Source: an uncultured Maricaulis sp. (GTDB taxonomy: Bacteria; Pseudomonadota; Alphaproteobacteria; Caulobacterales; Maricaulaceae). Taken from it: a stretch of DNA of 55,572 bases. The stretch covers positions 1 through 55,572 of the forward strand of contig NZ_CAJQOO010000040.1 of assembly GCF_905480005.1 (NCBI RefSeq). The letters run 5' to 3'. Shown piece by piece: positions 11,703 to 14,440 of this stretch; the first letter of the stretch is position 1; the number at the start of each line of letters is the position of its first letter. The notes beneath the pieces were generated by a model. It saw only the letters and a list, made by a program, of their open reading frames with translations. It ran no database searches and was not told the DNA's origin. A program made the position numbers and the translations under genes.

Positions 11703-12289
11703 CAGAGGCTGCTGCCAAACACATGTCCGGCGAGGTGCGAACCTCGATGTACCGGGTCATCATCAAGGCCGGTATCGACCAGGTCTGGTCGGAACTGATC
11801 CGGACCGACCGGCCCATGCCGTTCTTCTTCAACGGACAGTATGACACGCCCGGCCTGGGCGAGGGCGCGGCCTTTGCCATGCGCACGCCGGATGGCAAGC
11901 ACACCCTGGTCATGGGCAAGGTGATCGAGTTCGAACCGCCGCACCGTTATGCCCACACCTTCCGCTTCACCACCTCGGATGATCCGGTTTCGATCGTGCG
12001 CTACGTCCTCAAGCCGGTGGATGGCGGGGTCGAATTCACCCTCATCAATGAGCATGCCGCGTCTGATCCGGTCTCGAAGTCCGAAAAGCAGATGGCGCAG
12101 GGCGCGAAGTTTATCTGTGAAAATCTCAAGGCGCTGGTGGAGACCGGCAAGGCGACGATGGGTGGGCGCATGATGCTCTTCATGTTCTCGTTGATGGCGC
12201 CCATGACACCGAAGGCCGCGCTGTCGACCAACTGGCCGCTTGAGCGCGCGCCGGACCTGTCCGAGAATTCCGTCAAAGAGGAGGCTTGA
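11699..12289 (+). CDS. SRPBCC/AHSA1-domain protein
   Basis: 196 residues. The first 140 residues match the START-like AHSA1 fold (IIKAGIDQVWSELI at the start, GKVIEFEPPHRYAHTFRF in the middle, GGVEFTLINEH near the end), a hydrophobic-ligand-binding cup. The remaining 55 residues are a low-complexity, Met-rich tail. It is translationally coupled to the ArsR gene, a widespread pairing whose ligand is generally unknown. The third gene follows after two bases. Confidence 0.83.
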   Translation: MTEAAAKHMSGEVRTSMYRVIIKAGIDQVWSELIRTDRPMPFFFNGQYDTPGLGEGAAFAMRTPDGKHTLVMGKVIEFEPPHRYAHTFRFTTSDDPVSIVRYVLKPVDGGVEFTLINEHAASDPVSKSEKQMAQGAKFICENLKALVETGKATMGGRMMLFMFSLMAPMTPKAALSTNWPLERAPDLSENSVKEEA

Positions 12290-12291
12290 TC

Positions 12292-12861
12292 ATGGCGCAA
12301 TCACCGGAAGACATGGCGCGGTCCATGATTGCCAACATGCCGGAAAAGACCGGCAAGCCACTCGCCGACTGGGTGGCGATCGTCAAGGCGAGCGGGCTGG
12401 AAAAGCATGGCGAGATGGTCAAGCTGCTCAAGTCCGAGCACGGCATGACCCATGGCTTCGCCAATCTTGTGGCGCATGAAGTGAAGGGCCGCGTCGTCTC
12501 TGCGCCGGCCGCCGCAACGGATCTCGTCGAGGCGCAATATGCCGGACCGAAGGCCGGGCTGAGGCCGATCTATGAGGCGCTGGCGTCTGCCGCGACCGGC
12601 TTTGGCGGGGATGCCGAGCTGGCGCCCAAGAAGGCCTATGTCTCGCTGCGACGGGCCAAGCAATTCGGTCTGGTCCAGCCCTCCACCAGGACACGGGTCG
12701 ATCTGGGGCTGAATCTGAAAGGCATCGAACCGGCCGGCCGTCTGGAGGCCTCCGGCTCTTTCAACGCCATGTGCACCCACCGGGTTCGACTGGACAGCGA
12801 GGAGGCCGTCGACGCCGAGGTCATCGCCTGGCTCAAACAGGCTTATGACGCGGCCGGGTGA
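12292..12861 (+). CDS. DUF4287/DUF5655 domain protein
   Basis: 189 residues. The N-terminal half (SPEDMARSMIANMPEKTGKP and the LKSEHGMTHGFANLVAHE region) fits DUF4287. The C-terminal half (YVSLRRAKQFGLVQPSTRTRVDLGLNLK) fits DUF5655, a fold linked to a putative transport or binding role of unknown chemistry. Start ATG at 12292 with GAGGAGG upstream. Third gene of the ArsR-SRPBCC operon, where proteins of this type recur. No biochemical function is known to me. Confidence 0.8.
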   Translation: MAQSPEDMARSMIANMPEKTGKPLADWVAIVKASGLEKHGEMVKLLKSEHGMTHGFANLVAHEVKGRVVSAPAAATDLVEAQYAGPKAGLRPIYEALASAATGFGGDAELAPKKAYVSLRRAKQFGLVQPSTRTRVDLGLNLKGIEPAGRLEASGSFNAMCTHRVRLDSEEAVDAEVIAWLKQAYDAAG

Positions 12862-12940
12862 GGGGGCGACCGTTTAAGCGCTGGACAGGATTGTCGGGTT
12901 TGGGCATGGTGACGGTGAAATCTTGTTGGAGATTGGCGTC

Positions 12941-13081
12941 ATGCGCCTGAATGCGAGCAAAATCATGCAGAGGCAGTCGGCGGGCACACGAGCCGCTTGC
13001 TCGCGCATGGCCGCTCGCTTTCCGCTTATTTCGATTATCACCGTCATAGCGCCGTCTGGAGCGATGACCGCCACGACCTGA
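12941..13081 (+). CDS. Putative ilvA leader peptide
   Basis: A 46-codon frame with GGAG 9 bases before ATG 12941; in-frame alternative starts are at 12965 and 13007. The last 24 residues include LISIITVIA and then TATT, a run of Ile/Leu/Val/Thr encoded partly by ATT and ATA codons that look uncommon in this genome. The stop (13079-13081) precedes a strong intrinsic terminator by 27 bases, and the next gene is threonine dehydratase. This is the composition and geometry expected of an isoleucine-type attenuator peptide. Not confirmed by homology. Confidence 0.6.
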   Translation: MRLNASKIMQRQSAGTRAACSRMAARFPLISIITVIAPSGAMTATT

Positions 13082-13121
13082 CCCCTTTTTAGGTATCGTG
13101 CAGTTTCACCCCGCTTCTGAC
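13043..13121 (+). promoter_or_regulatory. Attenuator: alternative hairpins of the ilvA leader
   Basis: Segment 1:2 hairpin: GTCAT (13043-13047) with ATGAC (13064-13068), enclosing GC/GC and CC/GG pairs. Segment 2, GTCTGGAGCG (13054-13063), can instead pair with segment 3, CGCTTCTGAC (13112-13121), at 9 of 10 positions counting one G-U. Segment 3 is also the 5-prime arm of the terminator at 13109-13134. Segment 2 directly follows the Ile/Val codon run, so a ribosome stalled there would favour the 2:3 antiterminator. Pairings were read by eye. Confidence 0.6.
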
Positions 13122-13140
13122 ACCAGAAGCGGGGTTTTTT
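13109..13140 (+). terminator. Intrinsic terminator in the leader, upstream of threonine dehydratase
   Basis: An 11-bp perfect stem CCCCGCTTCTG/CAGAAGCGGGG (13109-13119 and 13124-13134), loop ACAC, followed by six T. It ends 25 bases before the threonine dehydratase ATG, too close for an independent promoter, which supports a role as attenuator. It could instead end the DUF4287 transcript 250 bp upstream. Confidence 0.85.
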
Positions 13141-13165
13141 CTGTGCGGTCTGCCGGAGACCGACC

Positions 13166-14440
13166 ATGCCCACGACTGCCCAATCACCGATGATGGACAG
13201 GCGCACCGCGCCTGAGCCTCGCGACGCTGCCATCGAGGCGGCCTTTGATCATGTCGAGCAATTGCGCGCGGACGGGTTTGGCGGGATTTTGCGGGCGCCG
13301 CTGATCGCCTCGCCGGGCCTGTCGGACGTGGCCGGCTGCGAGCTGTTCGTGAAGCTGGAGAACCTGCAGGTGACCGGCTCCTTCAAGGAGCGCGGCGCCT
13401 TTGCCAGGCTCGCGGCCCTCAGTGCCGATGAGCGCGCGCGCGGGGTTGTGGCCGCCTCTGCCGGTAATCACGCCCAGGGTGTGGCCCGCAGCGCAGCGGC
13501 GATGGGGGTTCGCGCGCGGATCTTCATGCCGAACGGCACGCCCATGGTGAAAGTGCATGCAACCCGCGCCCTGGGCGCCGAGGTCGAGATCGCCGGGGCT
13601 GATTTCGATGCCGCCAAGGCGCTGGCCCTGACCGAGGCGGAGACGGGCGGTGCGGTGTTTATCCATCCCTTTGACGACCCGGTCGTGCTGGCCGGGCAGG
13701 GTACGCTGGCCATGGAGATGCTCGAGGACCGGCCTGATCTCGATGTGCTGGTCTTCCCGGTGGGCGGCGGCGGCCTGGCAGCCGGTGCCGGGCTGGCCGC
13801 GCGTCGGATCAATCCGGACATCGAACTGGTCGGGGTCCAGTCCGATCTCTTTCCGTCCTTCGCCAACCGGTTTCATGGCGAAGACCGCCCGGTCGGGGGT
13901 TTTACCCTTGCCGAGGGGATTGCCGTGCGTGAACCGGGCGGGCTGACCAGTCGCCTCCTCATGGACCTTCTCGATGATGTCCTCCTGGTCGATGAGCGAC
14001 AGATCGAGCGGTCGCTCAATCTCTTCATCTCGCAGATGCGGGTTCTGCCGGAAGGGGCCGGCGCGGTCGGCCTTGCGGCAGTGCTCGCCCACCCTGAACG
14101 CTTTGCCGGCAAACGGGTCGGACTGGTCCTGACCGGCGGCAATGTCGACACCCGCCTCCTGTCCTCGCTCCTCCTGCGCGACCTGGCGCGCTCACACCGG
14201 CTGGCGCGTTTCCGGATCGAACTCGTGGATGTGCCGGGGCAATTGTCGGCGGTCTCGGACATCATCTCCGGTGCCGAAGGCAATGTGACCGATGTCGCCT
14301 ATCACAAGACCTTCTCGGATCTGCCCGCCAAGGTGACCTATATCGATATCTCGCTGGAGGCCCAGGATGGCGCCCATATGGACCGGATCCAGGCGGCCCT
14401 GCAGGCGGCCGGCTTCCGGGTCGAACTGGCGGGCTACTGA
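13166..14440 (+). CDS. ilvA: Threonine ammonia-lyase (threonine dehydratase) with ACT domain
   Basis: 424 residues. PLP-dependent deaminase converting threonine to 2-oxobutyrate, the first step to isoleucine. PLP lysine Lys74 in GSFKERGA, substrate loop SAGNHAQG, glycine-rich phosphate loop VGGGGLAAG. The C-terminal 80 residues (FRIELVDVPGQLSAVSDIISGAEGN...) are a single ACT regulatory domain, the shorter architecture of about 400 residues, not the two-domain E. coli IlvA. GGAG lies upstream of the chosen ATG. The attenuator-like leader argues for a biosynthetic role over a catabolic one (inference). Confidence 0.92.
   Translation: MPTTAQSPMMDRRTAPEPRDAAIEAAFDHVEQLRADGFGGILRAPLIASPGLSDVAGCELFVKLENLQVTGSFKERGAFARLAALSADERARGVVAASAGNHAQGVARSAAAMGVRARIFMPNGTPMVKVHATRALGAEVEIAGADFDAAKALALTEAETGGAVFIHPFDDPVVLAGQGTLAMEMLEDRPDLDVLVFPVGGGGLAAGAGLAARRINPDIELVGVQSDLFPSFANRFHGEDRPVGGFTLAEGIAVREPGGLTSRLLMDLLDDVLLVDERQIERSLNLFISQMRVLPEGAGAVGLAAVLAHPERFAGKRVGLVLTGGNVDTRLLSSLLLRDLARSHRLARFRIELVDVPGQLSAVSDIISGAEGNVTDVAYHKTFSDLPAKVTYIDISLEAQDGAHMDRIQAALQAAGFRVELAGY

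Follow-up and report, generated by a model that had tools for sequence, protein, structure and literature searches.

In the window analysed here, a stretch of 55,572 nucleotides from an uncultured Maricaulis sp., the threonine ammonia-lyase gene ilvA is very probably controlled by ribosome-mediated, isoleucine-specific attenuation, judging from its sequence and that of its relatives, and it probably acquired this control through a copy of the attenuator of the ilvD-ilvC-ilvB-leuA cluster that was re-coded to isoleucine. Between positions 12882 and 13140, on the 5' side of ilvA, the sequence runs from a TGGACA-N17-CATGGT pair through a Shine-Dalgarno-like site and an open reading frame (ORF) of 46 codons to a 1:2 hairpin, then to a hairpin spanning the stop codon and finally to a terminator. 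In silico, the parts of an attenuator are thus present: an ORF with an Ile run, an intrinsic terminator, and an antiterminator that excludes the terminator. The features are as follows.

12882–12887, plus strand: promoter -35-like element TGGACA (TGGAC[AT]-N17-CAN3T in 12 of 13 genus leaders)
12905–12910, plus strand: promoter -10-like element CATGGT of the same conserved pair, with transcription expected to start near 12917
12925–12931, plus strand: GTTGGAG, Shine-Dalgarno-like site of the leader ORF, from the sequence
12941–13081, plus strand: leader peptide ORF, 46 codons plus TGA, reading MRLNASKIMQRQSAGTRAACSRMAARFPLISIITVIAPSGAMTATT and stop
13034–13048, plus strand: putative control codons ATT ATC ACC GTC ATA (I I T V I), with an Ile run at this place, chosen by eye, in 13 of 13 relatives
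13043–13053, plus strand: segment 1, the 5' arm of the 1:2 hairpin 13043–13068 (minimum free energy (MFE) folds; hairpin at such a position in clade A, absent from clade B)
13058–13063, plus strand: segment 2 core GGAGCG, the Gly-Ala codons and antiterminator strand (GGA GCG in 12 of 13)
13072–13100, plus strand: hairpin spanning the leader stop codon, inside the antiterminator (folds; clade A, with mostly other small post-stop hairpins in clade B)
13108–13140, plus strand: intrinsic terminator, with segment 3 at 13108–13119, segment 4 at 13124–13135 and a T run to 13140 (scan and fold; 13 of 13 genus leaders)
13155–13158, plus strand: GGAG, Shine-Dalgarno-like site of ilvA, from the sequence
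13166–14440, plus strand: ilvA, single-ACT threonine ammonia-lyase, 424 aa (NF005600, 508.5 bits; TIGR01127, 395.6 bits; each above its cut-off)

The coordinates of the preliminary description proved correct, and the leader ORF, the 1:2 hairpin and the terminator were recovered, the hairpin in an MFE fold. Our scan gives the terminator, with its six T, 12 pairs, namely the 11 described before plus a closing A-U, and the T run ends 25 bases upstream of the ilvA ATG. Segment 2, originally delimited as 13054–13063, pairs with 13113–13122 at nine of ten positions, counting one G-U; only its core 13058–13063 is conserved, which leaves a 6-bp antiterminator. The MFE fold also contains the hairpin at 13072–13100, missing from the earlier list. 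Other leaders (L011–L015) likewise have a small hairpin at or past their stop codon, with sequences that differ between clades A and B; examples of the stems are CATCC..GGATG, CGTCC..GGACG and CATCT..AGATG. Such a hairpin may serve to juxtapose segments 2 and 3 or to make the polymerase pause.

Conservation and pairing across the genus

Fourteen of the 19 genus genomes compared carry this ACT-bearing ilvA, one copy of which (L018) is cut by a contig end; the proteins of the 13 intact orthologues are 62 to 100% identical to that of the window. A leader ORF and a terminator precede all 13. Each leader contains an Ile run, with at least three Ile per eight codons in 12 of them, and in 12 of the 13 the run starts 24 nt before segment 2. 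The distance from segment 2 to the stop codon is 15 nt throughout, the segment of L017 (AGGGTG) having been chosen by eye. Persistence of the Ile run and of segment 2 in close relatives had been named beforehand as the test of leader-peptide attenuation of ilvA by isoleucine, and with both kept in such relatives that proposal is supported. Counts of species differ from counts of events here because the species are not independent.

The promoter-like pair, from which L017 deviates, has its -10-like element ending 24–30 nt upstream of the leader ATG. A generic sigma-70 scan called no promoter at 12882–12910; since 12 of 13 relatives conserve the pair ahead of the leader, a leader transcript is nevertheless expected.

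Codon choice in the leaders is distinctive. ATT accounts for 46 of the 73 Ile codons in the 13 leaders, compared with 21% in 33 ORFs of the window, and segment 2 is written GGA GCG in 12 of the 13, although GGA makes up 9.1% of the Gly codons in the same ORFs. The reference ORFs were chosen by length and GC3 > 0.7 and are biased toward ATC and GGC; since they are GC3-filtered and the leaders are related, the binomial codon figure is no independent-case probability.

Conservation carries the argument since the window alone says less. The leader folds have z scores of -3.35 and -5.12 (the latter for 13020–13145), with none of 200 shuffles equally stable, and at least four Ile within one given stretch of eight codons has a p of about 3e-4, for a single stretch and the Ile frequency of the 33 window ORFs. 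The pairing of segment 2 is not significant in the window (shuffle p 0.055) and has single-sequence p values of 0.001–0.14 across the 13 species. The window value would not suffice, and conservation was therefore used to settle the antiterminator.

In a 12-row alignment (A5; L017 left out, and L015 off by one column, which lowers the paired percentages), the antiterminator columns hold standard pairs in 95.8% of cells, as against 50–65% when slid by 1–3 columns. Row L183 was dropped from a further alignment, A7. The terminator has two-sided changes at 3 of 12 pairs; the number of cells with a two-sided change and the covariation score were each matched in 1 of 500 shuffles, the number of pairs with such a change in 101 of 500. 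In the antiterminator, the 12 rows of A5 show no two-sided change, and its shuffle control was uninformative (500 of 500). In L017, the segment AGGGTG and the arm CGCCCT are both altered yet able to pair, as judged by eye. This leader, from G010, is the most divergent of the ilvA set: it keeps the terminator and the stop distance, its run is only WIITC, and its segment 2 is changed. It is possibly a decaying or re-tuned attenuator.

In clade B (L011–L014), leader mismatches at the three codon positions are 0.18, 0.13 and 0.43, a clear third-position excess. In clade A (L001, L006–L010), to which the window belongs, there is no clear excess, with 0.16, 0.17 and 0.22 over the final 18 codons and 0.44, 0.46 and 0.49 over the preceding 27. 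The evenness of the mismatches in the N-terminal half of the window leader thus gives little sign of selection on the peptide there, and its end is constrained at all codon positions, which is what a further role of RNA pairing would lead one to expect.

To delimit the range of the element, we searched ilvA loci outside the genus, and none of 116 has both an Ile-rich ORF and a terminator. These comprise the best 80 of 588 relatives, 16 loci of the order (none from the genus itself, and one from a different genus of its family) and 20 distinct family loci. The last come from the 21 of 37 outside-genus family matches that had loci, L164 and L034, which are one gene, being counted once. Two members of the set (L067 and L081) have almost no upstream DNA, and some genomes may be of the same species. 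Of the 37 family matches, 31 have an open frame of at least 503 residues, a longer form of the enzyme.

A probably related attenuator before ilvD-ilvC-ilvB-leuA

In the window's own genome, IlvD, IlvC, IlvB and LeuA are encoded in a row on one strand of another contig (C11), each family match lying above a cut-off and the leuA match ending 356 bases from the ilvB match. The cluster has a putative leader-peptide attenuator of its own.

G000:C11:59940–60058, minus strand: Leu/Val/Ile leader-peptide attenuator before ilvD-ilvC-ilvB-leuA (L182, L190)

A leader such as MINAYALPVAPAAALTGERVNALGLLLLVLVLIIPTITGAVSAPA and a terminator lie upstream of ilvD in all six genomes examined, and most operon leaders carry the rare codon GTA plus an ATA codon. 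A model built solely from six operon attenuators (R1) matches the operon element in 18 of the 19 genus genomes at 92–129 bits, the six model members included; the one genome without a match, G006, is 90% complete. Wider searches ran with stricter filters. At E 1e-6 in 99 family genomes, R1 found matches in 14 genomes outside the genus, 13 of them before ilvD (1) or ilvC (12); the G080 match, like the second matches of G079 and G121, does not precede either gene. At E 1e-7 in 150 order genomes, it gave one match in another family (G032, 38.8 bits), about 2.8 kb before the ilvB of that genome.

The two attenuators share their pairing parts. In the 16 operon leaders read, segment 2 is GGAGCG in 10 and GGAGTG in 6, the terminators are of the same type (CCCCGCTCC..GGAGCGGGG), and Gly-Ala followed by five or six codons and a stop occurs in 10. 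They differ in the control run, which in the operon leaders is Leu/Val followed by Ile, and in their genes, those of the operon serving all three amino acids. We consider it somewhat probable that one attenuator was duplicated and re-coded, giving a Leu/Val/Ile version before ilvD-ilvC-ilvB-leuA and a paralogous Ile-only version before ilvA; the descent would run from a copy of the operon attenuator, with control codons narrowed to Ile.

Similarity to the operon element is graded among the ilvA leaders. R1 matches six of the 13 ilvA attenuators over its whole length (L014, L012, L016, L013, L011 and L015; 41.8 to 22.1 bits), only the terminator of the window's attenuator and of those of five clade A relatives, and L017 not at all; its best score in the 26 outside-genus loci searched is 10.5 bits. 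Counting the two strands of the operon attenuator as one place, the ilvA attenuator is the best R1 place after it in four of these six genomes, and other places outscore it in G001 and G003. Leader peptides of clade B, L015 and L016 resemble operon leaders at a best shuffle p of 0.0005–0.001 (best of ten leaders each, uncorrected), clade B finding its best operon match in genus g23. For clade A the best p is 0.03–0.16, and for L017 0.02, again the best of ten and uncorrected. Because of these p values and of the R1 match to the terminator only, kinship of the clade A leaders with the operon attenuator is argued from shared geometry.

A possible but less credible reading is convergence, in which the ilvA and operon attenuators are alike merely through a shared mechanism. 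Pairing with a GC-rich terminator could by itself impose GGAGCG, the clade A leaders have no clear peptide similarity to operon leaders, and the operon stretch from segment 2 to the stop is variable (4 of 16 leaders have five codons there, 9 have six and 3 have one), as is segment 2 itself with its GGAGTG variant. Yet the exact arrangement of Gly-Ala, five codons and stop is common to 12 of the 13 ilvA leaders and to 4 of the 16 operon leaders, that of the window's own genome included, and L016 agrees with the operon leader of the window's genome at 21 of 26 bases without gaps, from GGGAGCGG to beyond the stop. The peptide matches of clade B, L015 and L016 also speak for common descent, with the above reservation that ten leaders were tried for each, as does the lack of any R1 match to the apparent ilvB attenuators of two other families of the order, f2 and f4 (L115–L118).

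If the two attenuators are indeed duplicates, Ile-only control puts the sole enzyme needed only for isoleucine under isoleucine alone. Two leaders that share pairing parts and differ in control codons would then be a natural codon-swap experiment on specificity: a paired system in one genome, with pathway logic written in control codons and relatives of graded divergence.

Proposed mechanism and the controlling amino acid

We then propose the following model for ilvA. Transcription would begin near 12917, and a ribosome would follow the polymerase closely while translating the leader peptide. Under a shortage of charged tRNA-Ile, this ribosome would stall on the Ile run, with its front edge over segment 1 but not yet on GGAGCG, whose first base follows that of the run by 24 nt. 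GGAGCG would then be free to pair with the terminator's 5' arm while the 3' arm is still unmade, so that the terminator is blocked and transcription continues into ilvA. With ample Ile, the ribosome would reach the stop codon, 15 nt beyond GGAGCG, with its rear covering part of segment 2; after its release the 1:2 hairpin would keep segment 2 occupied, the terminator would form, and the transcript would end at about 13140. If this is true, the conserved distances of 24 nt and 15 nt are a ruler for the reach of the stalled and the terminating ribosome.

Folding in silico agrees with the stalled state. When the Ile run is masked by a ribosome, the transcript preceding the 3' arm is predicted to form the antiterminator in 11 of 13 leaders; a ribosome placed at the stop codon leaves none of the 13 paired, which is partly a consequence of the mask. 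The two exceptions in the stalled fold are L009, which pairs when the upstream leader is omitted from the fold, and L017, whose weak run WIITC lies 15 nt from the segment chosen by eye. With no ribosome, the same transcript still favours the antiterminator in 11 of 13. Ribosome-free RNA thus leans to readthrough, and repression must therefore come from kinetics, from the ribosome at the stop codon together with the 1:2 hairpin, and from how stable the terminator is once complete.

It is highly improbable that the terminator merely ends transcription of the upstream gene (12286–12861) and that the small ORF is a chance frame. Terminators before genes are common, shuffled sequence yields as many terminator-like sites as the window (mean 2.1 against 2), and clade A, the window's own, shows no clear third-position excess; this reading must, however, accommodate a conserved promoter-like pair between the upstream gene and the terminator, an Ile run, segment 2 and stop at fixed distances in 12 to 13 of 13 species, and clade B leaders that change mainly at third codon positions. 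We also regard it as very unlikely that the leader acts mainly on translation, by reinitiation at or occlusion of the ilvA start, or via Rho, instead of through the intrinsic terminator: its stop codon is just 84 bases upstream of the ilvA start, which speaks for such control, but the stem and T run are present in 13 of 13 relatives and the stem carries the two-sided changes described above. Multivalent control, with starvation for Thr and/or Val relieving termination as well, is unlikely too. The window leader does bear IITVI and a TATT tail, and from these the preliminary description had suggested that threonine might be sensed as well. This part of it was not upheld. The tail comes after segment 2, so that a ribosome stalled on it would hide that segment, and six relatives have PTPV, LAPA or IASA in place of the tail (VLPV in L017). 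Within the run, the Thr of IIT becomes Ile or Pro in several other relatives, and the Val after the Ile run becomes Gly in clade B, so that neither residue is conserved outside clade A. Threonine control is rejected on conservation, and among the genus ilvA leaders only Ile is constant as a control codon. The 12 codons before Gly-Ala/Gly-Val hold 1–4 Leu/Val and 3–5 Ile in ilvA leaders (12 of 13 read), as against 5–7 Leu/Val and 2–3 Ile in operon leaders (16 of 18 read; the script behind these counts missed L198 and L201).

Ile-specific attenuation of ilvA can be set beside known systems. The E. coli ilvGMEDA (ilvL) attenuator has an Ile-rich leader, alternative 2:3 and 3:4 pairing and multivalent control by Ile, Val and Leu of a five-gene operon. 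The leader described here shares the Ile-rich peptide, the choice between 2:3 and 3:4 pairing, and ilvA as a target, which in E. coli is a member of the operon; unlike that multivalent element over five genes, the window ilvA appears to have an Ile-only leader to itself. Leader-peptide attenuation is an old kind of control, and its Ile-only form before a stand-alone ilvA appears to be new to us. Our literature search found no ilvA attenuator in Alphaproteobacteria; the main comparative study (Vitreschak 2004) lay outside its scope, and absence in print is not established. As described in a later paper, the ilvBN attenuator of Caulobacter crescentus (Tarleton 1994) has tandem Ile and Val codons, a Rho-independent terminator, and stalling that leads to readthrough (PMC4117421). 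It is like the present one in belonging to an Alphaproteobacterium and in its leader peptide and Rho-independent terminator, and unlike it in serving acetolactate synthase and responding to Ile plus Val, a likeness by that description and not by sequence (PMC4117421). An alphaproteobacterial ilvB leader peptide is also mentioned in another paper (PMC1273637). No known Rfam leader, T-box or riboswitch matches the window at gathering score, which is weak evidence because Ile/Val attenuators are reported to have been absent from Rfam in 2013 (PMC3766115).

The ilvA product and its paralogue

A single-ACT threonine dehydratase is a form often called catabolic, as the preliminary description noted. 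That label fits poorly here: a genome search detected no other ACT-bearing IlvA in the window's own genome, none of the 19 genus genomes has a citramalate synthase match at E 1e-60 (a limit that hides even LeuA, which scores 1.8e-54 against the model), and control by Ile suits a biosynthetic enzyme. Attenuation by Ile, if true, would point to the single-ACT IlvA of the window as the biosynthetic enzyme. The runner-up in the own genome is 37% identical to IlvA, aligned over query residues 39–338; its ORF of 331 codons covers positions 1–297 of a 380-position profile, and its closest family is threo-3-hydroxyaspartate ammonia-lyase, with a score below the cut-off.

In five genus genomes (G002, G005, G006, G007 and G008, two of them at most 90% complete), no ACT-bearing IlvA was found, just the paralogue without the ACT part. 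Citramalate synthase was considered as the source of 2-oxobutanoate in genus members lacking this ilvA and was set aside on the search result given above. In the paralogue loci of G017, G018 and G009 (L154, L158 and L160), in-frame stops are listed within the reported matches.
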